Origin: Cellulosimicrobium composti
GTDB lineage: Bacteria; Actinomycetota; Actinomycetes; Actinomycetales; Cellulomonadaceae
Assembly (NCBI RefSeq): GCF_009711085.1
Contig: NZ_WMKA01000032.1
Location: forward strand, 1-44,938
DNA length: 44,938 nucleotides
Reading direction: 5' to 3'
The first letter of the stretch is position 1. Each line of letters starts with the position of its first letter. Shown in pieces: positions 17,346-38,252 of this stretch. Both the position numbers and the translations under genes were made by a program. The notes beneath the pieces were generated by a model. The model saw nothing but the letters and a program-made list of their open reading frames with translations. It had not been told where the DNA came from and ran no database searches.

Positions 17346-17386
17346 CAGGCATACTGTGACGACAAGCGCTCGAGAGAGGACACGAC

Positions 17387-18432: not shown

Positions 18433-18441
18433 TCAGAACTG

Positions 18442-18606: not shown

Positions 18607-18630
18607 TATTATCGCCCTGTGTCGATCATA
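18607..18630. promoter_or_regulatory. Operator/promoter overlapping ArsR-type start
   Basis: TATTATCG and CGATCATA are inverted arms (7 of 8 match) around CCCTGTGT. The left arm contains TATTAT, a good -10 element, only 6 bp before the GTG start at 18619. So the mRNA is probably leaderless, and the regulator would repress by covering the start site. Confidence 0.55.
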
Positions 18631-19595: not shown

Positions 19596-19633
19596 GCGCG
19601 GCAGCAACGGCGCCGGCGAGAGATGATGGACCG

Positions 19634-19945: not shown

Positions 19946-19960
19946 CTGAGCTCGACCGAC

Positions 19961-22111: not shown

Positions 22112-23323
22112 CTAGGCCTCCAGCAGCAGCGCCTCTCCCTGCCCGCCGCCCCCGCACAGCCCGACCGCGACGCGCCCGCCGCCGCGACGGGCGAGCTCGT
22201 GCGCGGCGTGGACGGCGAGGCGGGCGCCGGAGGCGCCGATGGGGTGGCCGAGCGAGATGCCGCCGCCGTGGACGTTGACGACGTCGGGCGAGACGCCGAG
22301 CACGCGCGTGGACACGGCGACGACGGTCGCGAAGGCTTCGTTGATCTCGACGAGGTCGAGGTCGTCGACCGTCCACCCGGCCCGGTCGAGGGCCTGGCGG
22401 ATCGCACGTGCGGGCTGGGAGTGCAGCGACGTGTCCGGGCCGGCGACCTGGCCCCACGTGCGGACGGTCGCGAGCACGGGGGCGCCCGCGGACTCGGCGC
22501 GGGCGCGCGTGGTGAGCACGAGCGCGGCGGCGCCGTCGGAGATCTGCGACGCGTTGCCCGCGGTGATGGTGCCCTCGGGGTCGAACGCCGGACGCAGGCG
22601 CGCGAGGCCCTCGACGGTCGTGTCGGGGCGCACGCCCTCGTCGTCGCGGACCTCGTCGGGCTCGCCGCGGCGCTGCGGGACGCTCACGGGCGCGAGCTCG
22701 GCGTCGAACAGCCCGTCCTTCCACGCGGCGGCGGCGCGCTGGTGGGACGCGGCCGCGACGGCGTCCTGCTCCTCGCGCGAGACGAATACGTCGCCGACGT
22801 TGGTGCGCTCCGTCGAGACCCCCATGGAGGCGCGGTCGAACGCGTCGGTGAGCCCGTCGCTCGCGACGGCGTCGACGAGCGTCACGTCGCCGAACGTGAA
22901 CCCGGCGCGCGAGCCGGGCAGGAGGTGCGGCGCGTTCGTCATGGACTCCTGGCCGCCGACGAGCACGACCTCGGCCTCACCGGAGCGGATCATGCGCGTG
23001 CCGTCGATGACGGCGGTGAGCCCGGACAGGCACACCTTGTTCACCGTCACGGCGGGCACGTCCCAGCCGACGCCGGCGCCCGCGGCGGTCTGTCGCGCGG
23101 GGTTCTGCCCGGCCCCGGCCTGGAGCACCTGGCCGAGCACGACCGCGTCGACGGCGTCCGCGCCGAGGCCGGAGCGCTCGATCGCGGCGCGCGCGGCGAC
23201 GGCGCCGAGCTCGACGGCGGTCAGCGCGGCGAGCGAGCCCTTGAGCCGCCCCTGGGGCGTGCGGGCGGCGGCGACGACCACGACGTCGTCGGGGCGTGCG
23301 GGGGAGACGGGGGTGGTGCTCAC
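22112..23323 (-). CDS. Thiolase (acetyl-CoA acetyltransferase)
   Basis: A 403-aa thiolase, last gene of the catabolic operon. The nucleophile Cys98 is in TVNKVCLSG; GGGISLGHPIGASGAR carries the catalytic His, and VAVGLCGGGGQGEAL the second Cys. EINEAFA is also conserved. In this setting it should split acetoacetyl-CoA with CoA into two acetyl-CoA, the final step of 3-hydroxybutyrate breakdown. The GTG start overlaps the stop of the upstream hydrolase (GTGA), so translation is coupled. Length is normal. The reaction can run in reverse for polymer synthesis, but no synthase gene is present here. Confidence 0.93.
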   Translation of the reverse strand: MSTTPVSPARPDDVVVVAAARTPQGRLKGSLAALTAVELGAVAARAAIERSGLGADAVDAVVLGQVLQAGAGQNPARQTAAGAGVGWDVPAVTVNKVCLSGLTAVIDGTRMIRSGEAEVVLVGGQESMTNAPHLLPGSRAGFTFGDVTLVDAVASDGLTDAFDRASMGVSTERTNVGDVFVSREEQDAVAAASHQRAAAAWKDGLFDAELAPVSVPQRRGEPDEVRDDEGVRPDTTVEGLARLRPAFDPEGTITAGNASQISDGAAALVLTTRARAESAGAPVLATVRTWGQVAGPDTSLHSQPARAIRQALDRAGWTVDDLDLVEINEAFATVVAVSTRVLGVSPDVVNVHGGGISLGHPIGASGARLAVHAAHELARRGGGRVAVGLCGGGGQGEALLLEA

Positions 23324-24471
23324 GGCTGGACCTCCAGGGGTGCGGACGGCTCTGTCTGCGCGGGCGCCGGGGGTGTGGCGTCCGCTCGTGCGGTGGTCGT
23401 GCGGGCGACGGCGTCGTCCACGAGCCCGAGCAGGAGATCGAGGAACACGTCCGGCTCCTCGAGGTGGGGGCTGTGCCCGACGCCGGGCCGCACCTCCTCA
23501 CGGTACCTGCCGCCCGCGGCGGCGTAGGCGTCGAGGACGGCGCGGGTCTGGGCGACCATCGGCTGCGGCGGGTGCGTCTCGTCGCCCGGCCACCCGGGGA
23601 CGGCGCCGAGCGCGCCGAGCTGCGCGAGGTCGAACAGCGACGTGTCGGAGACGATCGCGTCGGCGTCGCCGCGCACCCACAGCACGGGCGCCGTCGCGCC
23701 GGACGTCGCGAACCCCGAGAGGTCGCAGTACTTCGCGCTGATCGCGTTGTTCATGCCGCGCGTGCCGGGCGCGACGCCGGGCCACGTGTCCGACGTCGTC
23801 CGGTCGCCCGGGTAGTTGTCGTCGCCGGTGCGGGTGGACAGGACGGAGTCGAGCAGCAGCTCTTCCAGGGCACCCAGCGGCTCGCCGAGCGAGGCCGGGT
23901 CGGCGACGTAGAACCGGCGCAGCACGTCGCGCGGCGACCCGGGGTCCTCGCTCCGGTCGCCCGCGGCGAGCGCCGCGACGAACGCCGGGTTGGCGGTCCC
24001 GCCGCCGGATCCCGCGACGTCGGGGGACAGCGGCGTGCCGTCGACGTCGCGCGTGCCGCCGAACCCGTACGGCGACATGGGCGCTTCGAGCAGGATCGCG
24101 TCGAACAGGTCGGGCCGGTCGGTCGCGAGCTGGAGCACGACGCCCGCCCCGGCGGAGTGCGCGACGGCGACGAGCGGGCGCGCGAGGTCGAGCGCGTCGA
24201 GCACGGCCGCGACGTCGTCGGCGAAGTCCCGCACGCCGCGCGTCGCGTCGACGGGCCGCACCTCGGCGTCGCCGTACCCGCGCAGGTCGACAGCGACGCC
24301 GCGCACGTCGGCGGGCAGCGCGCGCAGCAGCGGGTCGAAGAACGCCGACGACGAGCAGTTGCCGTGCACGAGGAGCACGGTCGCGCGCGCCGCGCCGTCG
24401 GGGGCGACCTCGCGCACGTGCTCGCGCCCGCGCGACGTCGTCACGTCGTGGCGCAGGACGTCGCGCGTCAC
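23320..24471 (-). CDS. Alpha/beta hydrolase, PHB-oligomer hydrolase candidate
   Basis: A 383-aa alpha/beta hydrolase. GTG 24471 overlaps the CoA-transferase B stop by 4 bp (GTGA). The oxyanion strand is [14 protein letters not shown], the nucleophile elbow [13 protein letters not shown] (A-x-S-x-G instead of the usual G-x-S-x-G), and the acid is in [30 protein letters not shown] carries the catalytic His. There is no signal peptide, so it acts in the cytoplasm. Because it lies between the CoA-transferase and thiolase genes, hydrolysis of 3-hydroxybutyrate dimers or oligomers is the most likely task, but a CoA-ester or lactone substrate is possible. The long insertion after [10 protein letters not shown] probably forms the lid. 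Confidence 0.85.
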
Positions 24472-25166
24472 GACGGCGTCCCGGCGGCTCGCGTGGACGG
24501 GCGGGCGTCGGCCACGTCGAGCGGCGCGTCGTCGAGCGCGACGGTGAGGTCGGGCTCGGTCGCGGCGCGCACGTCGTCGACGCTCACGCCGGGCGCGGTC
24601 TCGCGCAGCACGAGGCCGTCGGGCGTCACGTCGATCACCGCGAGGTCGGTGATGATCCGGTGCACGACCCCGCGTCCGGTGAGGGGCAGCGAGCACGAGC
24701 GCAGGATCTTGGGCGACCCGTCGCGCGCGACGTGCTCCATGAGGACGATCACGCGGCCCGCCCCGTGCACGAGGTCCATCGCGCCGCCGGGGCCCTTGAC
24801 CATCTTGCCGGGGATCATCCAGTTGGCGAGGTCGCCCGTCTCGGAGACCTGCATGCCGCCGAGGATGGCGGCGTCGATCTTGCCGCCGCGGATCATGCCG
24901 AAGCTCAGCGCGGAGTCGAAGAACGCGGCGCCCGGCAGGACGGTGACGGTCTCCTTGCCGGCGTTGATGAGGTCGGGGTCCACGGCGTCCTCGGTCGGGT
25001 ACGGCCCGACGCCGAGGATCCCGTTCTCCGACTGGAGCACGAGGTGCTTGTCCGCGGGCACGTAGTTGGGCACGAGCGTCGGCAGGCCGATGCCGAGGTT
25101 GACGTACCAGCCGTCCTGGAGCTCGCGTGCGGCGCGGGCGGCCATCTCGTCGCGGGTGAGCGCCAT
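24468..25166 (-). CDS. scoB: 3-oxoacid CoA-transferase subunit B
   Basis: A 232-aa family I CoA-transferase B subunit. [14 protein letters not shown] holds the catalytic glutamate (Glu47), which forms the CoA thioester; [29 protein letters not shown] and [30 protein letters not shown] are the other signatures. With subunit A it would move CoA from succinyl-CoA to acetoacetate. The start lies 3 bp after the subunit A stop, the usual arrangement. It supplies acetoacetyl-CoA to the thiolase in the same operon. Confidence 0.93.
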
Positions 25167-25169
25167 GTC

Positions 25170-26054
25170 TCAGCCCTCCTTCGTGCTGGTCGCGGTGCCC
25201 GACGACGCGGGCGCGGGCTGGTCGGTCGCGGCGGCGGGGCGCACGGTGCGGCGCTCGATGCGCTTGGGCGCGTCGGGGCCGACCTCGACGACGCGGTGCA
25301 CGAACACGCCGGGCAGGTGCACCTCGTCGGGGTCGATCTCGCCGGGCTCGACGAGCTCCTCGACCTGCGCGACGCACACGCGGCCCGCCATCGCGGCGAG
25401 GGGCGAGAAGTTGCGGGCCGAGCGGTGGAACACGAGGTTGCCGTGCCGGTCGCCGCGCAGCGCGTGCACGAGCGCGAAGTCCGTCGTGATGGCGTCCTCG
25501 AGCACGAACTCGGCCTCCTCCGCGTAGGACCCGTCGCGGCCGCGCGGCCCGACGCCGAACGTGCGCACCTCCTTGGGCGCGCTCGCCTGCGCGACGCCGC
25601 CCGCGCCGTCGTACCGCTGGGGCAGGCCGCCCTCGGCGACCTGCGTGCCGACGCCCGTGCGGGTCCAGAACCCGGCGATGCCCGCGCCGCCGGCGCGCAG
25701 CTTCTCGGCGAGCGTGCCCTGGGGCGTGAGCTCGAGCTCGAGCTCGCCCGAGAGGAACTGGCGCTCGAACTCCTTGTTCTCCCCGACGTACGAGCTCGTC
25801 ATCCTCCGGATGCGCCCCGCGCCCAGCAGGACCCCGAGACCCCAGTCGTCGACGCCGCAGTTGTTGCTCACCACCCACAGGTCGCGCGTGCCCTGGGCGA
25901 GCAGCGCCTCGATGAGGGCGATCGGGTTGCCGCACAGGCCGAACCCGCCGACGGCGAGCGACGCGCCGTCGGGCACGTCCGCCACCGCCTCGGCCGCGGA
26001 CGCGACCACCTTGTCCAGCCCGGTCCCTCGTGGGGACGCGATCGTGGGGCTCAT
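25170..26054 (-). CDS. scoA: 3-oxoacid CoA-transferase subunit A
   Basis: A 294-aa A subunit. Family signatures are SLAVGGFGLCGNPIALIEAL, VVSNNCGVDDWGLG and SYVGENKEFERQFLSGELE, followed by LTPQGTLAEKLRAGGAGI and FYTR-like FWTRTGVGT. The DGSYAEEAEFVLEDAI and HGNLVF motifs also fit. About 45 residues after the conserved core (TVRPAAATDQPAPASSGT) look disordered, making it longer than many members (usually about 230-250 aa). ATG 26054 overlaps the preceding hydrolase stop (ATGA). Confidence 0.93.
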   Translation of the reverse strand: MSPTIASPRGTGLDKVVASAAEAVADVPDGASLAVGGFGLCGNPIALIEALLAQGTRDLWVVSNNCGVDDWGLGVLLGAGRIRRMTSSYVGENKEFERQFLSGELELELTPQGTLAEKLRAGGAGIAGFWTRTGVGTQVAEGGLPQRYDGAGGVAQASAPKEVRTFGVGPRGRDGSYAEEAEFVLEDAITTDFALVHALRGDRHGNLVFHRSARNFSPLAAMAGRVCVAQVEELVEPGEIDPDEVHLPGVFVHRVVEVGPDAPKRIERRTVRPAAATDQPAPASSGTATSTKEG

Positions 26055-27112
26055 GCCGTGACCTCCTCGTCACTCGCGGGTCCCGGTGCGCCGCTCGTGA
26101 CGGCGTCCAGGGCTCGCAGGGTCTCGCCCGCGACGGCCTCGACGCCGGGCGGGCTCATGATGATCGTGTAGTGATTGATACCCGCTACGTCGCGGGTGCG
26201 CAGCCCCGGCAGCCGCTCGCGCCACGCGGCGAGGTGCTCGGGGGAGTAGAGCGCCTCGGGCTCGTCGAGCAGGCCGCGCGGCGCGCGCAGCAGGACGAGC
26301 GGCACGTCGAGCGGGTGCTCGCCCGTGAGCGCCTCGGCGAGCGGGCCGCCCTCGTAGAGCTCGAGCGAGTCGGCGGACACCGCCGCCGCGGACGACGCCG
26401 GGCGCAGGGCCGGGGCCTCGCCGACGAGGTCGTAGTCGACGTAGCCCGCGACGACGTCGCCCCACGGCTCGTCCCACGCGCTCGCGAACGCGGGGTGCGC
26501 GCGCCAGAACGCGCGGTACTCCTCGCGGTCGGCGAACGTGCGCGCGAGGCGCTCGACCGCGGGGCCGAGCAGCGCGCGCAGCACCTCGTCGTGCGTCGCG
26601 TCGGGCGCGAGCCCGGTGGGCGGCGGGAGCGGGACGCCGCCGTCGACGAGCACGAGCCGCGCCACGCGGCCCGGGTGGCGGTGCGCGAGCACGACGGACA
26701 CGAACGCGCCCATCGAGTGCCCGAGCGCGACGACGCTCTCGATCCCCAGCGCGTCGAGCACCGCCGCGAGGTCGTCGGCGTGCGCGCCCATGCCGTACGG
26801 GCCGGGCAGCGCGTTGCTCCGCCCGCGGCCGCGCAGGTCGGGTGCGACGACGCGCACGCCCGGCAGCGCCGCGACGACGGCCGGCCACGCGCGGTGCGAC
26901 GCCGTGATGCCGTGCACGGCCAGGACGGTGGGGACGGCACCCGGCGCCGGGCGTGCGCCGCCGGGCCGGGCGGCCGGCTCGGGGGCGTGCGGGCCGACCG
27001 GGTCCCACACGCCGACGCGCAGCCTCCCGCCCGCGACGGGCACGTCGAGCGTCGCGTACGTGTGGGTCGCGGCGGTGACGTCGCGCGCGGTCGCCGTCGT
27101 GCCCGCGCTCAC
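26051..27112 (-). CDS. Alpha/beta hydrolase, oligomer hydrolase candidate
   Basis: A 353-aa hydrolase. GTG 27112 overlaps the dehydrogenase stop (GTGA). Residues 62-68 (TVLAVHG) give the oxyanion strand; Ser133 in LGHSMGAFVSV is the nucleophile; GINHYTIIMSPP carries the catalytic His. The core resembles carboxylesterases and hydrolases acting on small esters. About 15 residues of Pro/Ala/Gly spacer precede the fold. It is cytoplasmic, without signal peptide. As it follows the 3-hydroxybutyrate dehydrogenase gene it may release monomers from imported 3-hydroxybutyrate oligomers. It is not closely similar to the second hydrolase of the operon (23320-24471), so the two may act on different chain lengths. 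Confidence 0.88.
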   Translation of the reverse strand: MSAGTTATARDVTAATHTYATLDVPVAGGRLRVGVWDPVGPHAPEPAARPGGARPAPGAVPTVLAVHGITASHRAWPAVVAALPGVRVVAPDLRGRGRSNALPGPYGMGAHADDLAAVLDALGIESVVALGHSMGAFVSVVLAHRHPGRVARLVLVDGGVPLPPPTGLAPDATHDEVLRALLGPAVERLARTFADREEYRAFWRAHPAFASAWDEPWGDVVAGYVDYDLVGEAPALRPASSAAAVSADSLELYEGGPLAEALTGEHPLDVPLVLLRAPRGLLDEPEALYSPEHLAAWRERLPGLRTRDVAGINHYTIIMSPPGVEAVAGETLRALDAVTSGAPGPASDEEVTA

Positions 27113-27867
27113 CGCGCGCTCCAGCCGCCGTCGATCGTCCACGACGCCCCGGAGACCATCGACGCGTCCGGGCCGGTGAGCCAGCCGACGAGCGACGCGA
27201 CCTCCTCGGGCTCGACGAGCCGCTTGACCGCGGACTCGGCGAGGAGCACGGTCGCGAGCACCTCCGACTCGGGGATGCCGTGCACGCGCGCCTGGTCCGC
27301 GATCTGCTTCTCGACCAGGGGCGTGCGCACGTACCCGGGGTTGACGCACACGCTCGTCACGCCGTGCGGGCCGCCCTCGAGCGCCGTCACCTTGGACAGG
27401 CCCTCCAGCCCGTGCTTCGCGGACACGTACGCCGACTTGAACGGGGACGCGACGAGCCCGTGCACCGACGAGACGTTGACGACGCGACCGAAGCCCCGCG
27501 CGTACATGCCCGGCAGCGCGGCGCGCACGAGCAGGAACGGCGCCTCGAGCATGATCGCGTGCAGCAGGCGGAAGTCGTCGGGCCGGAACTCCTCGATGGG
27601 GCTCACGCGCTGCACGCCCGCGTTGTTGACGAGCACGTCCACGTCGAGCGTGAGGTCGTCGAGCGCGCGCGTGTCGGCGAGGTCGACGACCCACGCCTCG
27701 CCGCCGAGCTCGTCGGCGAGGCGCTTCGCGCCGTCCGGGTCGACGTCGGCGACCGTGACGTGCGCGCCGCGCGCGGCGAGCTCGCGCGCGCACGCGGCGC
27801 CGATGCCGCTCGCGCCGCCCGTGACGAGCGCGCGGCGCCCGGCGAGGGTGGGGGTGGGGGCGGTCAT
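27109..27867 (-). CDS. 3-hydroxybutyrate dehydrogenase (SDR)
   Basis: A 252-aa short-chain dehydrogenase. The NAD-binding motif is ALVTGGASGIGAACA; DVLVNNAGVQRVSPIEEF is characteristic of 3-hydroxybutyrate dehydrogenases, as are VVNVSSVHGLVASPFKSAYVSAKHGLEGL (catalytic Ser, Tyr, Lys) and VCVNPGYVRTPLVEKQI. It would oxidise (R)-3-hydroxybutyrate to acetoacetate with NAD+. ATG 27867 overlaps the TetR stop (ATGA). The closely matching signature makes this gene the best guide to the operon substrate. Confidence 0.93.
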   Translation of the reverse strand: MTAPTPTLAGRRALVTGGASGIGAACARELAARGAHVTVADVDPDGAKRLADELGGEAWVVDLADTRALDDLTLDVDVLVNNAGVQRVSPIEEFRPDDFRLLHAIMLEAPFLLVRAALPGMYARGFGRVVNVSSVHGLVASPFKSAYVSAKHGLEGLSKVTALEGGPHGVTSVCVNPGYVRTPLVEKQIADQARVHGIPESEVLATVLLAESAVKRLVEPEEVASLVGWLTGPDASMVSGASWTIDGGWSAR

Positions 27868-28544
27868 CGCTCGTCTCCTTCGGTCGGGGACGCGGGCACG
27901 GGCCCGGTCCGGGGCGCGGCGAGCGCGCGCTCGATGAACTGCATGGTCTGCTCGAAGACGTGGGGCGGGACCTCGGCGGCCGCGGTGTCGTACGACGGCG
28001 GCTCGGCGCCCTCGTCCCACCGCCCGCCCCACAGGACCCAGCGCATGCCGACGATCTCGCCGATGCCCATGAGCGCCCACGCGGCGACCTCCGGGTCGAC
28101 GTCGGGACCCACCTCGCCGTTCGCGCGCGCCTTGTCGAGCCCCGTCATGTACCCCTCGACGATGCGCGAGTAGTGGCGGCGCAGCGCGCCGGGCGAGACG
28201 AACTCGGCCTGGCGCACGATCCGGTACAGCGCCGGGTGCTCGGCGGTGAAGCGGAAGAACGCCTCGAAGCCCGCGCGCTCGGCGTCCAGGCGCGTCGTGG
28301 CCTGCGAGCTCGCCTCGATCATCGCGTGCCGCACGCGCCGGTTGAGGTCGTCGACGAGCTCGTCGAACACGTCGATCTTCGACTCGAAGTACAGGTAGAA
28401 CGTGCCCTGGCCGACGCCCGCGGACTCCGTGATCTTCACGATCGACGCCTCGTGGTACCCGACCTCGGCGAACACCTGCTCGGCAGCGGCGAGGATCTTC
28501 GCGCGCGTGCGGTTGCCGCGGGCGGTGCGGGGCTGGGTGCTCAT
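27864..28544 (-). CDS. TetR-family regulator inside the operon
   Basis: A 226-aa TetR protein. Residues about 12-58 are the helix-turn-helix (AAEQVFAEVGYHEASIVKITESAGVGQGTFYLYFESKIDVFDELV). The C-terminal domain has ALYRIVRQAEFVSPGALRRHYSRIVEGY, similar to regulators of fatty-acid or acyl-CoA genes in actinobacteria. A disordered tail closes it. ATG 28544 overlaps the synthetase stop (ATGA). Being encoded inside the operon it likely represses its own transcript; the two 13-bp elements at 35014 and 35123 are the candidate sites. The effector could be 3-hydroxybutyrate, acetoacetate or a CoA ester. Confidence 0.9.
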   Translation of the reverse strand: MSTQPRTARGNRTRAKILAAAEQVFAEVGYHEASIVKITESAGVGQGTFYLYFESKIDVFDELVDDLNRRVRHAMIEASSQATTRLDAERAGFEAFFRFTAEHPALYRIVRQAEFVSPGALRRHYSRIVEGYMTGLDKARANGEVGPDVDPEVAAWALMGIGEIVGMRWVLWGGRWDEGAEPPSYDTAAAEVPPHVFEQTMQFIERALAAPRTGPVPASPTEGDER

Positions 28545-30163
28545 GAGTCCTCCGGGACGGTCACGCGCTCGACGAGCGAGCGGCGCGACACCTTGTGCAG
28601 CGACGTGCGGGGCAGGGACGGGACGAGGTCGAAGCGGCGCGGGACCTTGAAGTGCGCGAGCTCGCGGCGGCAGAACGCCTCGAGGTCCTCGGCGTCGGTG
28701 GGGAAGCCCGGGCGCGGCACGACGAACGCCGCGCCGACCTCGCCCCACCGGTCGTCGGGGACGCCCACGACCGCGACGTCCGCGACGACCGGGTGGCGGC
28801 GCAGCACGGCCTCGACCTCCGACGGCGTGACGTTCTCGCCGCCGACGATGAACACGTCCTTGAGACGGTCGACCACGCGGTAGTAGCCGTCCGCGTCGCG
28901 CTCGACGAGGTCGCCCGTGCGCAGCCAGCCGTCGTGCAGGACGGCAGCCGTCGCGGCCGCGTCGCGGAAGTACCCGGCGAACACGCCCGGCCCGCGGACC
29001 AGGAGCTCGCCCGCCGCGGGACCGTCGAGGTGCCGCCCCGTCACGGGGTCGGCGACCGCGACCTCGACGTGCGGGTACGGCGTGCCGGCCGACCCGATGC
29101 GCTCGCGTGCCTGGTCGTCGGGCAGGCACAGCACGTTGGGGCCCGCCTCGGTGAGCCCGTACCCCTGCGAGAGGGCGACGCCGCGCCGGTGCCACGTGCG
29201 CAGCAGCGGCTCGGGCATCGGCGCGCCCCCGACCACCGCGTGCCGCAGCGACGACAGGTCGGCGTCCGCGAAGCCGGGGTGCTCGGCGAGGAGCAGGTAG
29301 TTCGTCGGGACGCCCATCATCGTCGTCACGCGGCGCTCCGCGACGAGCTGGAGCACGCGCTCGGGCTCGAACGTGCGCTCCAGGACGACCGTCGCGCCGG
29401 TCCACCACGCGAGCAGGGGCTGGATGTTCCAGCCGCCCGCGTGGAACTGCGGCAGCACGCTCAGCACGACGTCGTGGCTCGTGAGCTCGACGGTGCGCGA
29501 GAGGGACAGGTTGGTCCAGAAGCAGTTGGCGTGCGTGAGCAGCGCGCCCTTGGCCGCGCCCTGCGTGCCGGACGTGAACACGAGCAGCAGCGGGTCGTCG
29601 TCGCGCACGGGCCGGCGCTCGGGCACGGGCGCCGTCCCCGTCCCCGTCCCCGTCCCCGTGACCGCCGTGCCGGCGGTGCCGTGCGTGACCCGCGGCCGAC
29701 GCGAGGGCGGCGGCACGTGCGCCTCGACGCCGCTGCGCCCGAGCTCGGTCCGCCGGGGCGGCAGCACGAGGCGGTCCAGCGCCGCGTCGGCGAGCGCCGA
29801 GAACTCCTGCTCGACGAGGACGAGCGCCGGGTCGGCCTGCTCGAGCTGCGCCGCGAGCTCCCCGGGCGACAGGCGCCAGGACAGCGGCGCGAGCACGAGC
29901 CCGGCCTGCGCGCACGCGAAGAACAGCACGACCTGGTCGGCGCTGTTGCCCGTCACCGTGGCCACGCGGTCGCCGACGCCGTACCCCGCGTCCCGGAACG
30001 CCGCCGCCAGGGCGCTCGCGCGCTCGTGCAGGTCGCGGTAGCGCAGGGTCACGCCGCGGTCGTCGACCGCGACGCGCTCGGGCGTCGCGAGCGCGCGGTC
30101 GCGCGTCCAGCGCCCGAGCGTGTGCAGGCCGTCGTGCGCGCCGGTGAGGTGCGTCGTCGTCAT
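28541..30163 (-). CDS. Acyl-CoA synthetase (AMP-forming)
   Basis: A 540-aa ANL-family enzyme. Phosphate-binding motif LLLVFTSGTQGAAKGALLTH, GYGLTEAGPNV, GWLRTGDLVERD and DRLKDVFIVGGENVTPSEVE are all present, and the C-terminal lysine is in TSLHKVSRRSLVER. It activates a carboxylic acid to its CoA ester with ATP. Here it could activate 3-hydroxybutyrate or acetoacetate directly, next to the CoA-transferase route. An unusual insertion of about 55 residues, low in complexity (VTGTGTGTGTAPVPERRP), lies between the N-terminal part and the ATP-binding motif. ATG 30163 overlaps the permease stop (ATGA). Confidence 0.92.
   Translation of the reverse strand: MTTTHLTGAHDGLHTLGRWTRDRALATPERVAVDDRGVTLRYRDLHERASALAAAFRDAGYGVGDRVATVTGNSADQVVLFFACAQAGLVLAPLSWRLSPGELAAQLEQADPALVLVEQEFSALADAALDRLVLPPRRTELGRSGVEAHVPPPSRRPRVTHGTAGTAVTGTGTGTGTAPVPERRPVRDDDPLLLVFTSGTQGAAKGALLTHANCFWTNLSLSRTVELTSHDVVLSVLPQFHAGGWNIQPLLAWWTGATVVLERTFEPERVLQLVAERRVTTMMGVPTNYLLLAEHPGFADADLSSLRHAVVGGAPMPEPLLRTWHRRGVALSQGYGLTEAGPNVLCLPDDQARERIGSAGTPYPHVEVAVADPVTGRHLDGPAAGELLVRGPGVFAGYFRDAAATAAVLHDGWLRTGDLVERDADGYYRVVDRLKDVFIVGGENVTPSEVEAVLRRHPVVADVAVVGVPDDRWGEVGAAFVVPRPGFPTDAEDLEAFCRRELAHFKVPRRFDLVPSLPRTSLHKVSRRSLVERVTVPEDS
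29634..29657 (-). repeat. Hexanucleotide repeat, four GTCCCC units
   Basis: Four exact GTCCCC units on the plus strand encode alternating Gly-Thr in the acyl-CoA synthetase linker. Units of 6 bp change length without shifting frame, so the linker can vary between strains. Confidence 0.85.
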
Positions 30164-31317
30164 GCCACCTCCTCGAGGCGCTCGCGGGCTCCCTCCCGAT
30201 CCTCCCGCGGGCGGCGGCGCGCGGCGAGGCGCGACGCGGCGCCCGCGATGCCCCCGGGCAGGAACATCACGACGAGGACGAACAGGGTCCCGAGCAGGAA
30301 CAGCGGCTCGCTGAGCGGCACGCGGAGCACCGCGGGCAGGTCCGCGACGGCCGCGGAGCTCGCGAGCGTCCCGAGCCGCTGGTCGAGGATCGTGTAGAGC
30401 ACGCCGCCGACGATCGCGCCCCACCGGGACCCGACGCCGCCGAGCACGACCATGACGAGCAGCGTGAGCGTGAAGTCGGCCGACGTCGCGCGCGGCACGG
30501 CCCCGGACTGGAGCAGGAGGTACGCCATGCCGACGACCGTCGCGAGGGTCGCGGCGAGGACGAACACGAGGAGCTTGACGAGGTACGGGCGCCCGCCGAT
30601 CACGCGCACGCGGACCTCGTTCTCGCGCGTCGCCGCGGCGACGTGGCCGGCGCGCGAGCGCTCGACCCACAGCACGACGAGGTAGACGACGACGAGCACG
30701 CCGAGCGCGAGCCAGTAGAGGTTGCGCGTGTTGAGCACGCCCACGAGCGCGTCGGGGACGTTCGCAGTCGCGAGCGCGAGTCCCTCCTCGCCGCCCGTGG
30801 CGCCGCCGGGGTTGCGGCGCACGAGCACGTTGCCCGCCTGCGCGAACGCGAGCGTGACCATCGCGAACGAGATCCCCGTGACCCGCAGCGAGATCGCGCC
30901 GACGACGTGCGCGAGCACGATCCCGCCGACGAGCACGAGCGCCGCAGCGGGCAGCAGCGGGATCTCGGTCGTGTCGAGCACGATCGCGAGCCCGTAGACG
31001 CCTGCCGCGAAGTAGAGCGCGTGGCCGAAGCTCAGCAGCCCCGCGACGCCGAACAGCAGGTGGTAGCTCAGCGCGAGCGCGCCGATGAGCCAGCACAGCG
31101 CCATCATCTGCAGCGCCCCGGGCGTGTACGTGGGGCCGGGCAGGACGCCCGGCACGTGGATCGCGAGCAGGGGGAGGCACGCGAGGAGCACGACGAGCGC
31201 GAGGCCGGCGACCGTGCGGACGATCGTGCCCGACGGCGCCCGGCGGACGGTGCGCTCGGCGCGCGGCGCGTCGTCGGCCGGGGTGGCCGGGGCCGGGGGA
31301 GCGGTCTGGGTGGTCAT
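30160..31317 (-). CDS. livM: Liv-type ABC permease (LivM family)
   Basis: A 385-aa permease of the hydrophobic amino acid uptake family. After a polar 30-residue start come about nine hydrophobic segments, among them TVAGLALVVLLACLPLLAI, LLSFGHALYFAAGVYGLAI and VLALVGGIVLAHVV-like spans. The family motifs GVAGLLSFGHA, ISFAMVTLAFAQ and LLVMVVLGGVGSRWGAIVGG are clear. It forms the membrane channel with the neighbouring LivH-type permease. The Pro-Ala-rich N-terminal extension is unusual but fits actinobacteria. ATG 31317 overlaps the LivH stop (ATGA). The substrate cannot be read from the permease. Confidence 0.92.
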   Translation of the reverse strand: MTTQTAPPAPATPADDAPRAERTVRRAPSGTIVRTVAGLALVVLLACLPLLAIHVPGVLPGPTYTPGALQMMALCWLIGALALSYHLLFGVAGLLSFGHALYFAAGVYGLAIVLDTTEIPLLPAAALVLVGGIVLAHVVGAISLRVTGISFAMVTLAFAQAGNVLVRRNPGGATGGEEGLALATANVPDALVGVLNTRNLYWLALGVLVVVYLVVLWVERSRAGHVAAATRENEVRVRVIGGRPYLVKLLVFVLAATLATVVGMAYLLLQSGAVPRATSADFTLTLLVMVVLGGVGSRWGAIVGGVLYTILDQRLGTLASSAAVADLPAVLRVPLSEPLFLLGTLFVLVVMFLPGGIAGAASRLAARRRPREDREGARERLEEVA

Positions 31318-32189
31318 GCGGCTGCCCTCCCGAGGAGGCCGGTGGGACGGACGAGGAGCACGAGCGCGAGCAGGAGCACGACGATGAGGTCGCCGTAGCC
31401 GAGGTAGTAGTTCGCGAACTGCTGCAGGACCGCGACGAGCACGGACGCCACGGCCGCGCCGGTCAGCGAGCCGAGCCCGCCGATGACGGTGACGATGAAC
31501 GCGAAGATGAGGAGCGACCCGCCGAGGTGCGGCGAGACGTACCCGAAGTACTGCGACGCGAGCACGCCGCCGAGGCCCGCGGCGGCGCCGCCGACGGCGA
31601 ACACGAGCGTGAACGCCTTGCGCACGTCGATGCCGAGCGCGGTGACCATCGACCGGTTCTCGACGCCCGCGCGGATGATGAGCCCGTAGCGCGTGCGCCG
31701 GAGGAACAGCACGATCGCGCCGAGCACGAGCGCGGCCGCCGCGATCGCGACGAACCGGTCGTTGGGCACGGGCGCGCCCGCGAGGTCGGTCGTGCCCTTG
31801 AGCCACGCGGGCCCGGAGATGAACTCCGGGTCGGAGCCCCACATGCCCTCGAACAGCGCGACGGACGCGAGCGAGAGGCCGACGGTGACGAGCACCTGCT
31901 CGATGTGCCGCTCGTACAGCGGGCGGATGAGCAGGAGCTCGGTGAGCGCGGCCGCGGCCGCGCCGACCACCGCCCCGGCGAGCAGCGAGAGCGCGAAGAC
32001 GCCCCACGAGTCCGCGCCGAGCGTGCGCGCGACGAACCAGCCGCCGAACGCGCCGAGCGTGAGGAACGAGCCGTGCGCGAAGTTCAGCACGCCCATGAGC
32101 CCGTAGATGAGCGACAGCCCGGACGCGACGAGGAAGTACAGCGCCCCGAGGCCGAGCCCCGTGACGAGGAGGAGGACGATCGTGCTCAC
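31314..32189 (-). CDS. livH: Liv-type ABC permease (LivH family)
   Basis: A 291-aa permease with about eight membrane spans. It begins LLLVTGLGLGALYFLVASGLSLIYGLMGVLNFAHG, the hallmark of LivH proteins. RRTRYGLIIRAGVENRSMVTALGIDVRKAF is the cytoplasmic coupling helix that contacts the ATPases, followed by VIGGLGSLTGA. Start GTG 32189 overlaps the LivF stop (GTGA). It pairs with the LivM-type permease. Confidence 0.93.
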   Translation of the reverse strand: MSTIVLLLVTGLGLGALYFLVASGLSLIYGLMGVLNFAHGSFLTLGAFGGWFVARTLGADSWGVFALSLLAGAVVGAAAAALTELLLIRPLYERHIEQVLVTVGLSLASVALFEGMWGSDPEFISGPAWLKGTTDLAGAPVPNDRFVAIAAAALVLGAIVLFLRRTRYGLIIRAGVENRSMVTALGIDVRKAFTLVFAVGGAAAGLGGVLASQYFGYVSPHLGGSLLIFAFIVTVIGGLGSLTGAAVASVLVAVLQQFANYYLGYGDLIVVLLLALVLLVRPTGLLGRAAA

Positions 32190-32965
32190 CGGGACACCGC
32201 CCCTTCGGCCGTTCGGTGGTCGACCTCGGCGTGCACGCCGAGCAGCTGCTGGACGCGGTCCTGGTCGTCGAGGAGCGCGCGCGCAGGGCCGGTGTGCACG
32301 ACGCGGCCCGCGTCGACGACGACGACGCGCTCCGCGAGCCGCTCGACGACCTCGAGGTTCTGCTCGACGAGCAGGATCGGGACCGTGCGCGCCGCCTCCG
32401 CGAGCGCGTCGGCCACCTCGCCGACGATGCGCGGCGCGAGGCCCTTGGTGGGCTCGTCGACGAGGAGGAGCCGGTTGGCGTTGAGCAGGGCGCGCGCGAG
32501 CGACACCATCTGCTGCTGCCCGCCCGAGAGCGTGCCGGCCCTCTGCGCCGCGCGCTGCACGAGGTCCGGGAACAGCTCCGCGACGAGCTCGCGCCGCGGG
32601 TGGGCGTCGCGCTCCGCGAGCCGCAGGTTCTCCGCGACCGTGAGCCCGGCGAACACCTCCCGGTCCTCGGGCACGTACCCGACGCCGCGGCGCACGATCC
32701 GGTCCGTGCGCTCGCCGTCGACGCGCTCGCCCGCGAGCAGCACCTCGCCGCGGCGCTCGATCAGGCCGAGCACGGCCTTGAGCGTCGACGTCTTGCCGAC
32801 GCCGTTGCGCCCCAGGACGGCCGTGACGCCGGTGGCCGGGACCGAGAAGGTGACGTCCTCGACGACCTGCTGACCCGCGATGCGCGCGGACAGCCCGCGC
32901 ACGTCGAGGACGGGCACGTCGGGCGTCGCCCCGGTGCGGTCGGTGTCGTTCCTCCCGGCGCTCAT
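32186..32965 (-). CDS. livF: Liv-type ABC ATPase (LivF family)
   Basis: A 259-aa ABC ATPase. Walker A GRNGVGKT, Q-loop region VGYVPEDREVFAGLTV, signature LSGGQQQMVSLARAL, Walker B LLLVDEPTKGLAP and H-loop region ILLVEQN are present. GYVPEDR and the short length are typical for LivF. It drives import together with the LivG-type ATPase. ATG 32965 overlaps the LivG stop (ATGA). The acidic C terminus (HAEVDHRTAEG) is not conserved. Confidence 0.93.
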   Translation of the reverse strand: MSAGRNDTDRTGATPDVPVLDVRGLSARIAGQQVVEDVTFSVPATGVTAVLGRNGVGKTSTLKAVLGLIERRGEVLLAGERVDGERTDRIVRRGVGYVPEDREVFAGLTVAENLRLAERDAHPRRELVAELFPDLVQRAAQRAGTLSGGQQQMVSLARALLNANRLLLVDEPTKGLAPRIVGEVADALAEAARTVPILLVEQNLEVVERLAERVVVVDAGRVVHTGPARALLDDQDRVQQLLGVHAEVDHRTAEGAVSR

Positions 32966-33738
32966 GCCGCCTCTCCTGCCGTGATGCCGAGGTACGCGCT
33001 CTGCACCGTCGGGTCCGCCATGACCGCGTCGGGGGTGTCGCACGCGAGCAGCTCGCCGTGGTGCATGACGGCGACGCGGTCGGCGAGCCCCAGCACGACG
33101 TGCATGTGGTGCTCGACCATGAGGACCGTGCACCCCGTGGCGTGCAGGTCCCGGATGACCTCGACGAGGCCCGGGACGTCGGCCGACGACACGCCCGCCA
33201 TGGGCTCGTCGAGCAGCACGACGCTCGGTTCCGTCGCGAGGAGCACCGCGATCTCGAGCTTGCGCTTGTCCCCGTGGGACAGGTCGCCCGCGGCGGCCTC
33301 CGCGCGGTGCGTGAGGCCCACGGTCTCCAGGTGCCGGTCGGCCTCCCGCGTCGCGGCGTCGCCGCGACGCGGGAAGCGCAGCACGGACAGGGCGCCGCCG
33401 AGGCGGCCCTGCGCGGCGAGCCGCACGTTCTCCCGGACGCTCAGGCGCGGGAACAGGCTCGACGTCTGGAAGGTGCGGCCGAGTCCGGCGCGGGCGCGCG
33501 CGGCCACCGAGGTAGTCGTGACGTCCGCGCCCTCGAGGAGCACCGACCCGCTCGTCGGGCGGTGGATCCCCGAGACCAGGTTGAAGAGCGTCGTCTTGCC
33601 CGCGCCGTTGGGACCGATCACCCCGAGCATCTCGCCCCGCCCGACGGCGAGGCTCACGCCCTGGAGGATGCGCGCCCCGCCGATCTGCAGGCCGAGGTCG
33701 CGGACCTCGAGCGCGGGGGTGGTGTGCGGCTCGCCCAC
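32962..33738 (-). CDS. livG: Liv-type ABC ATPase (LivG family)
   Basis: A 258-aa ABC ATPase. Walker A is GPNGAGKT; GLGRTFQTSSLFPRLSVRENV is the LivG-specific Q-loop region; the signature is LSHGDKRKLEIAVLLA, in which His replaces the usual second Gly, a form common in LivG. Walker B is VVLLDEPMAGV, and VLMVEHHMHVV is the H-loop. GTG 33738 follows the binding protein stop by 1 bp. It works as a heterodimer with the LivF-type ATPase. Confidence 0.93.
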   Translation of the reverse strand: MGEPHTTPALEVRDLGLQIGGARILQGVSLAVGRGEMLGVIGPNGAGKTTLFNLVSGIHRPTSGSVLLEGADVTTTSVAARARAGLGRTFQTSSLFPRLSVRENVRLAAQGRLGGALSVLRFPRRGDAATREADRHLETVGLTHRAEAAAGDLSHGDKRKLEIAVLLATEPSVVLLDEPMAGVSSADVPGLVEVIRDLHATGCTVLMVEHHMHVVLGLADRVAVMHHGELLACDTPDAVMADPTVQSAYLGITAGEAA

Positions 33739-33739
33739 G

Positions 33740-34963
33740 TCAGCCCGCCTCGGCCGGCGCGACGTCCTCGCCCGGCACCTCGGCGACGAGCTCCGGCACC
33801 CACGCGTCGCCGTCGGCCACGAGCCTGACCTGGTACATGGGCTGGACGAGCGCGTGGTCGGACGCGCGGACGGTCGTGGTGCCCTTGGGGCCTTCGAAGG
33901 TCCAGCCCTCGAGCGCGTCGACCATGGCGTCGACGTCGTCGCCGCCCTCCTCGATCGCGTGGACGATCATCTGCGCCGCGACGAACCCGTCGGGCGTGAA
34001 CAGGTCCGCCTGCTTGCCCGCTGCCTCGACGGACGCGAGCATCGCGGCCTCGACCTCGGTGCCGGCCGCGCCCGGGAAGTAGTGGTTGAGGAAGTCGACC
34101 TTGCTCGCGGCGGCGCCGTACGCGCCGTACGTCGCGACGTCGCCGAGCCCGGTGACGACCGTCGTCGAGTCGAGCACGCCCTGCTGGTCGAGGCCCTGCC
34201 ACATCGCGCCGGACGTGGCGCCCGCCCACGCGACGAACACGAGGTCCGGAGCGGCGTCGACGATCTGGTGCGCGAACGGCGTGAACTCCGTCGCGTCCTC
34301 GGGCACGAGCACGCTGCTGACGTTCGCGCCCTGCGCGCCGAGGACCGCCTCGACGGCCGCGAGGTTGCCCTGCCCGAACGCGTTGTCCTGCGCGAACACG
34401 ACGACCTCGGCGCCCTGCGGGTCGAGGAACGTGCCCGCTGTCGCGACGTCCTGGAGGGACTGGCGGCCCGAGCGGAACGTGTAGTCGTTGATGCCGGTCA
34501 GCGCGTCGACCGCGGCCGGGCCGGAGATGTAGAGGACCTTGTTCTGCTCGGCCTGCTCGGCCAGCTTGAGCGCGACGCCCGAGACGACGGTGCCGCCGAG
34601 GATCTGGTAGCCCTTGCCGATGAGGTCCTTCGCCTGGCCCACGGCCTTGTCGGGGTCGCCGCCGTCGTCGTGGAAGGTGACGTTGATCGGGCGGCCGTCG
34701 ACCTCGCCGGTGCCGCCCGTCGCGTGGTCGAGGCCGGCCTGGAAGCCCTCGTAGTAGGCCTCGCCGTACGCGGCGAGGGGGCCGGTCTTGGAGTAGATGA
34801 TGCCGACGTCGACCGGCTCGGCGCTGGCGCTCGACGCGCCGTCGGTCGCCTGGCTCGCGTCGCCGCCCGTCGCGTCGGTCGGCGCGCACGCGGCGAGCAC
34901 GAGGCTCGCCACCGCGAGCGTGGCGACGGCGAGTGCCGGCCGGTGGGACTTCTTCGTCCGCAT
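33740..34963 (-). CDS. livK: Liv-type substrate-binding lipoprotein
   Basis: A 407-aa extracellular binding protein, first gene of the operon. The signal peptide (MRTKKSHRPALAVATLAV) ends in the lipobox LAAC with Cys26 as lipid anchor, then a Ser/Thr/Asp-rich linker. The periplasmic-binding fold type I starts at VDVGIIYSKTGPLAAYGE; GRPINVTFHDDGGDPDKAV, ILGGTVVSG and VFAQDNAFGQGNLAAVEAVL are standard for this family. The family binds branched-chain amino acids, amides, urea or aromatic acids in known cases. Because all downstream catabolic genes act on 3-hydroxybutyrate, the likely ligand here is 3-hydroxybutyrate or a short oligomer. That is inference. Confidence 0.92.
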   Translation of the reverse strand: MRTKKSHRPALAVATLAVASLVLAACAPTDATGGDASQATDGASSASAEPVDVGIIYSKTGPLAAYGEAYYEGFQAGLDHATGGTGEVDGRPINVTFHDDGGDPDKAVGQAKDLIGKGYQILGGTVVSGVALKLAEQAEQNKVLYISGPAAVDALTGINDYTFRSGRQSLQDVATAGTFLDPQGAEVVVFAQDNAFGQGNLAAVEAVLGAQGANVSSVLVPEDATEFTPFAHQIVDAAPDLVFVAWAGATSGAMWQGLDQQGVLDSTTVVTGLGDVATYGAYGAAASKVDFLNHYFPGAAGTEVEAAMLASVEAAGKQADLFTPDGFVAAQMIVHAIEEGGDDVDAMVDALEGWTFEGPKGTTTVRASDHALVQPMYQVRLVADGDAWVPELVAEVPGEDVAPAEAG

Positions 34964-35013
34964 GACTTCGCCCTTCGTTGGGTGGTCCTGGGGGAGCGCC
35001 GCTCAAACATGAG

Positions 35014-35026
35014 AGGCGATTCAGGT
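35014..35026. promoter_or_regulatory. Operator candidate, copy 1 (livK side)
   Basis: AGGCGATTCAGGT lies just downstream of the predicted -10 element for the minus-strand operon, covering the expected transcription start. It matches the copy at 35123-35135 at 12 of 13 positions, in the same orientation. Confidence 0.55.
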
Positions 35027-35033
35027 TGCGGGA

Positions 35034-35063
35034 ATCATGGACGCGCGGCGGTCGCGGTGTCAA
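35034..35063 (-). promoter_or_regulatory. Promoter of the livK operon
   Basis: On the minus strand TTGACA (35063-35058) is followed after 18 bp by CATGAT (35039-35034). These fit a vegetative sigma factor promoter. The predicted start near 35027 leaves a leader of about 63 nt before ATG 34963. Confidence 0.6.
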
Positions 35064-35117
35064 CCCGGTGCCGCGTCGGCGGGGTCGCGACGCGAGGACC
35101 GTGCGCGGCACGAGATG

Positions 35118-35147
35118 TTGACAGGTGATTCAGGTCACACGTAACGT
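35118..35147 (+). promoter_or_regulatory. Promoter of the PHB depolymerase gene
   Basis: TTGACA (35118-35123) and TAACGT (35142-35147) are separated by 18 bp. The second 13-bp element (35123-35135) overlaps the -35 hexamer at its last base and fills the spacer. The leader to ATG 35233 is about 80 nt. Confidence 0.6.
35123..35135. promoter_or_regulatory. Operator candidate, copy 2 (depolymerase side)
   Basis: AGGTGATTCAGGT, one base different from copy 1 and 109 bp away from it. It lies between the -35 and -10 of the depolymerase promoter, a position where a bound repressor blocks RNA polymerase. GTGA-N6-TCAC forms a small inverted repeat across it. Confidence 0.55.
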
Positions 35148-35232
35148 CCGGTCCGCCCGGGTCCGGCGCGCGACGGAGCGCGCGGGCCGCGCTCCGCGCG
35201 GCCGGTGACCCGACCGCGACGTGGAGGTACAG

Positions 35233-36711
35233 ATGGTCCGGCACTCCCTCGCGCGGCGCGCCCGCCGCGCCGCCCTCGCCCTCGGCACCGCGGCCGCCGT
35301 CCTGCTCGCCCCGCTCGTGACGGCGCCCGCGGCCTCGGCCGCCGGCGCGTGGTCCCAGCGGACGGCGGGCGGCATGACGGTCGAGCTCTACCGCCCGACG
35401 ACGGCTCCCGCCCTGCCCGGCGGACGCGCGCTCATGGTCTCGCTGCACGGCTGCGTCCAGACGTCGCAGGTGCTGAAGAACGCGGGGAACTGGGCCGCGA
35501 CCGCGGACGAGCACGGGATGGTCGTCGCGATCCCCGCCGCGCCGAACGGCGGCGTCCTGCTCGGGTGCTGGGACTACTACGACACGAACCACAGCCGCAC
35601 GAACCCCGCGCGGCACGACGACAACCTGCTCGACCTCGTCTCGGCGCTGCTCGCGGACCCGTCCCTCGGCATCGACCCGGACCAGGTGTACGTGAGCGGG
35701 CTGTCGTCGGGCGGCGGCCAGGCCATGGTCATGGGGTGCCTCGCACCCGACGTGTTCGCCGGCGTCGGGATCGCCGCGGGGCCCACGGTCGGCACGACGT
35801 CGGGCCAGATCGGGAGCGTCGCGACGTCGCTCGCCCAGGCGCGCTCGACGTGCCGCACCTTCGCCGGGTCCCACGCCGCGGGCTTCGACACGCAGGTGAC
35901 GTCCGTCGTGTTCGGCAGCGCCGACACGACCGTCGCGACCGGGTACGGGACGCTCAACGCCCAGGTCATGGCGGACCTCTACGGCGCCACGACGACGTCG
36001 TCGTTCTCGCTCGCCGGGCTCGCGGGGACCAACACCGCCGGCTCGGGCTCGCTCTGGTCCGACGCCGACGGCCCGCGCGTCTCGCTGATCCGGAACACGG
36101 GGCTCGCGCACGCGTGGCCCGCGGGCGGCGGCCCCGGCGGGTCGTACGTCTCGACGAACAGCGTCGACTACCCGGCGTACCTCACCGACTTCCTCTTCGA
36201 GAACAACCGGCGCGTCGACCGCGACCCGGACCCCGACCCGGACGTCACGGCGCCGTCGGTCACGATCACGTCGCCGGCGGACGGCGCGACGGTCGCCGGG
36301 ACCGCGCGCGTCGAGGTCGCGGCGTCCGACGACCGCGGCGTGGACCGCGTCGAGCTCAGCGTCGACGGCGCCGCGCTCGCCACGCTGCGGACCGCGCCGT
36401 ACGCGCACGACTGGGACACGACGGCGCTGCCCGCCGGCTCGCACGTGCTCGCGGCGCGCGCGGTCGACGCGGCGGGCAACGCGGCCACGACGCAGGTCAC
36501 GGTGACGGTCGAGTCGCCGACCGGGCCGTGGTGCGGGACGGCGACCAACGCGCAGCACCAGGCGGCCGGCCGCGCGGTCTCCTACGGCGTGAACCCGTAC
36601 AACCCGTACTACGCCGTGGGCTCGCTCGCGTACCTCGGGCTCGGCGACGCGACGGTCACGACGCTGCGCGAGGTCGTGCCGGGACGGTTCGAGGTCGCCG
36701 CCGCCTGCTGA
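35233..36711 (+). CDS. Secreted poly(3-hydroxybutyrate) depolymerase
   Basis: A 492-aa exported esterase; ATG 35233 has GGAGGT four bases upstream. The signal peptide (about 1-36) has an Arg-rich start and AASA cleavage region. The Esterase_phb catalytic domain (about 40-325) shows VSLHGCVQTSQV near residue 70, the nucleophile Ser158 in YVSGLSSGGGQAM, Asp231 in GSADTTV, and His293 in TGLAHAWPAGG. After an Asp-Pro linker comes an Ig-like domain (about 340-427) and a C-terminal module (about 433-492: HQAAGRAVSYG, LGLGDATVTTLRE, with a Cys at each end) of the type found at the end of PHB depolymerases, probably binding polymer. It would release 3-hydroxybutyrate and oligomers outside the cell. 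It is divergent from the importer operon. Confidence 0.9.
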   Translation: MVRHSLARRARRAALALGTAAAVLLAPLVTAPAASAAGAWSQRTAGGMTVELYRPTTAPALPGGRALMVSLHGCVQTSQVLKNAGNWAATADEHGMVVAIPAAPNGGVLLGCWDYYDTNHSRTNPARHDDNLLDLVSALLADPSLGIDPDQVYVSGLSSGGGQAMVMGCLAPDVFAGVGIAAGPTVGTTSGQIGSVATSLAQARSTCRTFAGSHAAGFDTQVTSVVFGSADTTVATGYGTLNAQVMADLYGATTTSSFSLAGLAGTNTAGSGSLWSDADGPRVSLIRNTGLAHAWPAGGGPGGSYVSTNSVDYPAYLTDFLFENNRRVDRDPDPDPDVTAPSVTITSPADGATVAGTARVEVAASDDRGVDRVELSVDGAALATLRTAPYAHDWDTTALPAGSHVLAARAVDAAGNAATTQVTVTVESPTGPWCGTATNAQHQAAGRAVSYGVNPYNPYYAVGSLAYLGLGDATVTTLREVVPGRFEVAAAC

Positions 36712-38046: not shown

Positions 38047-38252
38047 CGTGCTCCTGGGGTCGCGGACGTGTCGCACGGTCCGCGCACGCGAGCCGTGGCC
38101 GACCAGACTTCCCGGCACACCGTCCTCGATCCTACGCGGTGGGTACCTCTCGCGACCGACGTGCCCGGATGACGATCCTCCGCGCGGACGGCGTCACCCG
38201 CATCGCGCACGCGGCAGGTGCAGGGCGTGCGGCGCGTCACGCCTCCGGTCGG

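Follow-up and report, generated by a model that had tools for sequence, protein, structure and literature searches.

How 3-hydroxybutyrate (3HB) and its oligomers enter a bacterial cell after poly-3-hydroxybutyrate (PHB) has been digested outside it is poorly known, and a stretch of 44,938 nucleotides from Cellulosimicrobium composti (contig NZ_WMKA01000032.1; hereafter the window) puts this question in concrete form. Here, a gene for a secreted esterase of the PHB depolymerase family is divergent from an operon that encodes a Liv-type ABC importer, a TetR-family regulator and enzymes for the breakdown of 3HB. A preliminary description of the window had proposed that these genes scavenge PHB. 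From gene content, regulatory sites and distribution among genomes, we consider the locus to be probably a TetR-controlled utilization system for extracellular PHB. The new finding is a pair of operator sequences, ACCTGA-N8-TCAGGT, with conserved positions at the operon and at the depolymerase gene.

Layout of the locus

Genes were called by a method based on G+C at third codon positions (GC3), and families were assigned with Pfam and NCBIfam models. The operon comprises 13 genes on the minus strand (22112-34963); nine of its 12 junctions are 4-bp overlaps, and the remaining three are gaps of 1, 3 and 41 bp. It contains the full Liv-type (HAAT-type) set of a Peripla_BP_6 binding protein, two BPD_transp_2 permeases and two ABC_tran ATPases. 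The models supported the assigned function of every operon gene and of the depolymerase, and the divergent arrangement first described is confirmed. The depolymerase gene, on the plus strand, was called from a GTG at 35221; read by eye, the ATG at 35233, which is preceded by GGAGG, looks the likelier start.

An operator common to the operon and the depolymerase gene

A scan with the binding protein yielded 66 named loci in actinobacteria. In 65 of these loci and in the window, the 330-450 bp that precede the binding-protein gene were surveyed for operators, giving 66 regions (L093 was left out because only the end of its binding-protein gene is present). The exact palindrome ACCTGA-N8-TCAGGT occurs in 34 of the 66 regions. 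With up to four mismatches to ACCTGAATCRCCTSTCA, a site was found in 65 of them, while a reversed-pattern control gave two matches across all 66. The sole region without an operator, L053, is also the sole full-length locus that lacks tetR and the ligase gene. From this joint loss of operator and tetR, together with the gene order, we infer that the TetR protein binds the operators.

All 14 regions with a divergent depolymerase gene (13 loci and the window) carry two perfect operators, and in each of them the second copy lies inside the depolymerase promoter. Among the 52 other regions, 48 have one site, one has none, and three (L054, L056 and L086) have one site plus a weak match with four mismatches. 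Relative to the predicted promoters of the window (Table 1), the two operators, O1 and O2, stand at ordinary repressor positions. Inspection by eye revealed that O2 overlaps the TTGACA facing the depolymerase gene in all 14 regions and that a TANNNT follows this TTGACA at 18 bp in 13 of them, the exception being L045.

When the 4.3-Mb genome was scanned with up to two mismatches, only O1 and O2 were recovered, and the reversed control gave no match. In the window alone, with three mismatches allowed, there were two matches, both perfect, against 0.21 expected; two of 100 shuffles also gave two. The operator common to both transcription units, its rarity in the genome and the co-occurrence of depolymerase and importer described below make it very likely that the two form one TetR regulon. 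Digestion of the polymer and uptake thus appear to be under a single regulator, a link stronger than the preliminary description could see. The regulator was also compared with FadR, FasR, ScbR and MftR, none of which was matched over its equivalog cut-off; the best score, for the ScbR type, was 76.4 against 150.

Co-occurrence of depolymerase and importer

The preliminary description suggested searching actinobacterial genomes for the joint presence of depolymerase and binding-protein genes, and in the family and order samples the depolymerase was found only together with the importer. In the family sample of 200 genomes, 27 had the binding protein and 18 the depolymerase, and every one of these 18 was among the 27; the hypergeometric probability of this overlap is 2.5e-19, a value that ignores kinship. 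Within the genus (17 genomes including our own, one of them just 75% complete), the importer was present in 8/8 genomes with the depolymerase and in 3/9 of the others (Fisher 0.007). The order sample (396 genomes) contained 45 genomes with the importer and four with the depolymerase, all four among the 45, although only G484 was new relative to the family sample. In the phylum sample of 198 genomes, the depolymerase was found in our own genome only.

Of the 18 cases in the family sample, 17 have depolymerase and importer genes side by side. Separate contigs carry the two in G005 (family sample) and G484 (order sample). The G005 depolymerase gene is preceded by an operator-like palindrome with one mismatch at about 200-260 bp upstream, and that of G484 by one with two mismatches at about 120-230 bp, both distances depending on the start codon. 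The background for such palindromes was 17 matches with two mismatches and none with zero or one mismatch in 1.30 Mb. A 17-base pattern gave one match with two mismatches in G005.

Enzymes encoded at the locus

The secreted enzyme scored 167.3 bits against NF050058, the model for type-1 extracellular short-chain polyhydroxyalkanoate (PHA) depolymerases (cut-off 150), and 172.4 bits against TIGR01840 (cut-off 107.85). By eye, it has a signal-like N-terminus and the lipase box GLSSG (GxSxG), and its GSADT and GLAHAW motifs, with the downstream Asp and His, align with 8daj. It thereby fits the family of extracellular short-chain-length PHA depolymerases with a type-1 catalytic domain, and its hydrolysis of PHB is a prediction. 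In a search of the 4.3-Mb genome at E 0.001, it is the single match to Esterase_PHB (PF10503).

For the 3-hydroxybutyrate dehydrogenase (HBDH), the curated scores point both ways: the protein scored 264.6 against NF009093, over the cut-off of 258, and 301.1 against TIGR01963, under the cut-off of 307.05. It aligns with D-3-hydroxybutyrate dehydrogenases across the substrate-site residues, with Q94, S142, H144, K152, Y155 and Q196 (2yz7 chain numbering, by eye), which we take to form that site, identical in the alignment. Only one short-chain dehydrogenase/reductase (SDR) of the genome reaches this level, with 300 bits against 149 for the runner-up. Both CoA-transferase subunits belong, by their scores against curated subfamily models, to the 3-oxoacid CoA-transferase (SCOT/PcaIJ) families (TIGR02429, 228.3 with cut-off 128.5; TIGR02428, 329.6 with cut-off 243.55).

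An intracellular PHB storage cycle was considered as the setting of these enzymes and rejected: the PHA synthase domain PhaC_N (PF07167) was not found in the 4.3-Mb genome, so that there seems to be no PHB reserve inside the cell for the HBDH to draw on.

Conservation of the operon

Gene counts (tblastn, at least 40% identity) were made over the 60 loci of at least 19 kb, leaving out six shorter ones. The genes livG, livF, livH, livM and hyd1 were each found in 60/60 of these full-length loci, and the ligase gene and tetR in 59/60 each. HBDH lies within counting range in 52/60, and CoA-transferase subunits A and B in 43/60 and 41/60, the counts for CoA-transferase and thiolase being limited by the 10-kb flank. 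From these counts, importer, ligase, TetR and hyd1 form a near-invariant unit that usually has HBDH alongside. Eight loci have no HBDH in range. In L045 it lies just outside; the genomes of all seven others have an HBDH-type gene elsewhere, which in six is over the curated cut-off and in Tessaracoccus (L061) under it at 293.6 bits. The tie of homologous operons to 3HB genes, which the preliminary description had made a touchstone of its proposal, is thus kept.

A depolymerase gene is present in 14/60 full-length loci, namely the 13 divergent cases and Nocardioides bruguierae (L089). Since the other 46 lack such a gene nearby, the general trait of the operon is probably the scavenging of 3HB compounds. 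The proposal of a PHB/3HB locus with a Liv-type importer is well supported in this form, while a general tie of the operon to the digestion of PHB by the same cell is not.

In 13 Microbacterium loci (including L062, 18685-19479), a gene for an IclR-family regulator, with the family tested on L062, separates hyd1 from CoA-transferase A and runs on the opposite strand; it is perhaps a second level of control. Two records titled Sphaerisporangium cinnabarinum (L033) and Sphaerimonospora mesophila (L043) carry loci near those of Cellulosimicrobium and Promicromonospora, with binding proteins 92% and 78% identical, respectively; these are perhaps mislabeled strains.

Residues of the binding protein

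The binding protein was compared with E. coli LivK and LivJ, on which the numbering of Glu226 was checked, by way of an alignment with only 18-19% identity, on which the residue comparison rests. In this alignment, LivK Ser79 is kept as S128 in 45/45 binding proteins. The position of Thr102 is Ala in 38/45 and Thr in none, and that of Glu226, presumably the ammonium ligand that holds the amino group of the substrate, is Thr in 43/45 and Ser in 2/45; the window protein has Ala and Thr, respectively. With this residue lost in the alignment, a preference for leucine, which was named at the outset as an outcome that would speak against uptake of 3HB, appears unlikely. Arg164, Arg167 and Gln171 are invariant among the aligned proteins, and our guess is that they might hold a carboxylate. 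A branched-chain amino acid binding protein of the LivK/LivJ kind was tried as an assignment and rejected, both on the Glu226 position and on the score against the LivK/J-type model NF011933 (50.4 bits, cut-off 477).

Alternative cargoes and functions

The best reading of the importer, to judge from its gene neighborhood and the operator, is that it serves 3HB compounds. Within the same regulon, its cargo could be limited to the monomer of 3HB, perhaps along with acetoacetate, and the hydrolases would have other esters or thioesters of the cell interior as substrates. Of the catabolic enzymes beside the conserved core, HBDH is indeed the one most consistently present, a Mariluticola HBDH gene lies immediately upstream of the binding-protein gene, and hbtABC of Ruegeria pomeroyi is reported for the monomer in the accessible text of PMC10130141. 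Against this stands, in favor of oligomers, the constancy of hyd1, which, with its presence in all 60 loci, is greater than that of HBDH in the locus; its product lacks a signal peptide by eye. Also counted for oligomers are five Promicromonospora loci (L036-L039 and L041), where HBDH is set apart and follows a carrier of the major facilitator superfamily (MFS), accompanied in four of the five by a called LysR gene, while the depolymerase remains grouped with importer, ligase, TetR and hyd1. Tested on L036 (16849-21191), this carrier is of the MHS type and, with the LysR gene as a regulator of its own, is a candidate for carrying the monomer. The locus of Georgenia sp. EYE_87 adds a short-chain fatty acid carrier (PF02667; L051, 18880-20274) between hyd1 and CoA-transferase A. 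Taken together, the Promicromonospora and Georgenia arrangements suggest that the monomer has uptake routes other than the Liv-type importer, and we regard a cargo of monomer only as rather unlikely.

A second possibility is that the importer takes a different set of carboxylic acids or of esters (esters with short or branched acyl groups, hydroxy acids or lactones), with the 3HB genes forming a ketone-body module of general use and the esterase acting on another polyester. Nine plasmid stretches with related importers were viewed (eight of the ten matches of one search and one further match from another), the gene tables of which are incomplete. One of them, from Mariluticola halotolerans (L125, 9391-17720), encodes in this order a sigma-54 regulator, HBDH (over its cut-off with 369.8 bits), the binding protein, the pair of ATPases, the pair of permeases and an alpha/beta-hydrolase. 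PDB 3n0x and 3nnd, which we take to be from Rhodopseudomonas palustris, are full-length close relatives of its binding protein (567 bits) and, among solved structures, those most closely related to the protein of the window (3n0x, E 1.7e-41). An annotated alpha/beta-type hydrolase adjoins the importer in 6/9 stretches. In the other 8/9, no HBDH is annotated, which implies that the importer family, taken together, reaches beyond 3HB; in several, the importer neighbors genes for enoyl-CoA hydratase, MaoC, AMP ligase and acyl-CoA dehydrogenase. Four alphaproteobacterial plasmids (L122, L123, L124 and L126) carry a conserved set made up of a homologous importer with alpha/beta-hydrolase, TetR, enoyl-CoA hydratase, AMP ligase and MaoC.

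These neighborhoods would suit another cargo, as would the CoA ligase of 59/60 loci and the fatty and dicarboxylic acids bound by HAAT-type binding proteins of R. palustris in the accessible part of PMC3223731. The operator, however, is common to the importer and an enzyme over the curated PHA-depolymerase cut-off, and each full-length case that was checked has an HBDH-type gene, be it within the locus or elsewhere. We hold another cargo to be unlikely.

A ferulate or aromatic system, with a feruloyl esterase, a feruloyl-CoA synthetase and a beta-ketoadipate pathway made up of hydrolase, CoA-transferase and thiolase, is very improbable. Feruloyl-CoA synthetase is among the best solved relatives of the ligase, feruloyl esterases are among those of the secreted esterase, and hyd1 matches PcaD models, though far under their cut-off. 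Yet the esterase is over the PHA-depolymerase cut-off and the operon contains no enoyl-CoA hydratase. The intradiol ring-cleavage dioxygenase PF00775 was not found in the 4.3-Mb genome, which leaves CoA-transferase and thiolase unexplained by a beta-ketoadipate pathway, and this pathway was rejected; moreover, we know of no role for HBDH in it or in ferulate breakdown. That a branched-chain amino acid importer lies beside PHB genes by chance has its Liv-type subunits to recommend it and is hardly credible given the score against the LivK/J-type model, the Thr and Ala at the Glu226 and Thr102 positions and the operator common with the depolymerase gene.

Several observations weigh against the proposed system of PHB utilization. 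HBDH genes away from the locus have no operator. The sites of the unlinked depolymerase genes in G005 and G484 are imperfect, the 17-base pattern having no match at three mismatches at the G484 depolymerase gene, and in N. bruguierae the depolymerase gene follows hyd1 on the same strand without an operator of its own. The hyd1 product has a generic alpha/beta-hydrolase fold, which is not diagnostic, and its best structural neighbors are not PHB enzymes. To these are added from above the roughly 6 bits that HBDH falls short of TIGR01963, the 46 loci without a depolymerase, the plasmids without an annotated HBDH, the low identity to LivK/LivJ and the neglect of kinship in the co-occurrence statistics.

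Features and surroundings of the locus

Table 1. Position of the genes, promoters and operators in the window
Feature	Position	Strand	Remarks
Secreted PHB depolymerase-family esterase	35221..36711	+	signal-like N-terminus, type-1 catalytic domain, Big_7 domain, C-terminal domain with Cys at both ends
LivK-like substrate-binding protein	33740..34963	-	Peripla_BP_6; lipoprotein by LAAC motif
LivG-like importer ATPase	32962..33738	-	ABC_tran
LivF-like importer ATPase	32186..32965	-	ABC_tran
LivH-like importer permease	31314..32189	-	BPD_transp_2
LivM-like importer permease	30160..31317	-	BPD_transp_2
AMP-forming acyl-CoA ligase	28541..30163	-	AMP-binding
TetR-family regulator	27864..28544	-	TetR_N; predicted to bind O1 and O2
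(R)-3-hydroxybutyrate dehydrogenase (HBDH)	27109..27867	-	SDR
Alpha/beta-hydrolase hyd1	26051..27112	-	conserved core member; predicted oligomer/ester hydrolase; signal peptide absent by eye
3-oxoacid CoA-transferase subunit A	25170..26009	-	
3-oxoacid CoA-transferase subunit B	24468..25166	-	
Alpha/beta-hydrolase hyd2	23320..24471	-	weak similarity to intracellular PHA depolymerases
Acetyl-CoA acetyltransferase (thiolase)	22112..23323	-	
Operator O1	35007..35026	.	directly downstream of operon -10
Operator O2	35116..35135	.	across depolymerase -35 and spacer
Predicted operon promoter	35034..35063	-	TTGACA, 18-bp spacer, CATGAT; 10/12 matches, shuffle mean 0.0
Predicted depolymerase promoter	35118..35147	+	TTGACA 35118-35123, 18-bp spacer, TAACGT 35142-35147

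An Abhydrolase_9 gene (19961-22030) sits 81 bp past the thiolase gene and is not a conserved member of the operon; its product has a hydrophobic N-terminal stretch, and the gene is found behind the thiolase in Cellulosimicrobium-type genomes. On the other side of the locus, nhaA and DUF1697 genes (36724-38807) remain near it in several genera, at differing ends (also in L040, L042 and L094): they adjoin the depolymerase or binding-protein gene in Cellulosimicrobium and Isoptericola and lie beyond the thiolase gene in L159 and L160, which matching coordinates identify as Promicromonospora-type and Antribacter genomes. The G+C content of the window is 66-72% over the first 20 kb and 74-78% beyond. 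A CadD-type cadmium transporter is encoded at 18984-19595, and the left part of the window (1-20000) may be a genomic island.

Discussion

We propose that the secreted depolymerase would free 3HB and short 3HB esters from PHB, that the lipoprotein would capture them and that the Liv-type importer would carry them into the cell. There, hyd1, with hyd2, would split the esters; HBDH would form acetoacetate, CoA-transferase or CoA ligase would activate it, and thiolase would yield acetyl-CoA. TetR would repress both divergent promoters via O1 and O2 until an intermediate released it; the likeliest such compound is an acyl-CoA formed by the ligase whose gene adjoins tetR.

Polysaccharide utilization loci likewise unite a secreted depolymerase, an importer, an intracellular hydrolase and a regulator in one controlled unit; the window locus would follow the same logic, differing by its polyester substrate, its Liv-type ABC importer and its TetR control. 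Uptake of 3HB is what the proposed importer would have in common with HbuT of Bacillus subtilis, for which we know of no binding protein or ABC subunits. The accessible text of PMC8000602 describes HbuT as a presumed 3HB transporter and cites a 2015 title according to which it is required for 3HB uptake in early sporulation. According to a 2023 study (PMC10130141, as far as accessible), no 3HB uptake system of bacteria is confirmed other than that of the R. pomeroyi hbtABC genes (SPO2571-2573). These genes serve uptake of exogenous 3HB, as is predicted for the window importer, and number three, whereas the Liv type has five genes; the parts of that study at hand mention no depolymerase or TetR regulon, of which the window has the former and is predicted to have the latter.

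For R. palustris, the accessible portion of PMC3223731 reports that, among binding proteins with a branched-chain amino acid annotation, few showed a response to these amino acids, and that aromatic and fatty or dicarboxylic acids were measured as ligands of HAAT-type importers. These binding proteins, encoded near CoA-ligase genes as in the window, thus have carboxylic acids as ligands; that portion mentions neither 3HB nor depolymerase genes, and its ligands were measured, whereas the cargo of the window importer is predicted. The earlier statement that no Liv-type importer is known for 3HB stood up, in that none was found among the matches listed in open-access literature, with subscription papers outside the scope.

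Going further, we put forward tentatively, as something that may fall just short of probable, that these genes represent a previously undescribed family of Liv-type ABC importers dedicated to 3HB oligomers. With a cytoplasmic ester hydrolase, a CoA ligase and an acyl-CoA-sensing TetR, they would make up a polyester utilization locus in many actinobacteria, most of which would live on fragments released by others, while a minority would have recruited a depolymerase by means of an operator in its promoter. If true, this would add another, apparently unrelated importer type for 3HB compounds, a substrate class important to bioplastic decay, and would provide a ready-made sensor-operator pair and a relative of solved structure (3n0x). 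Annotations as 'branched-chain amino acid' importers would then need correcting in many actinobacteria.

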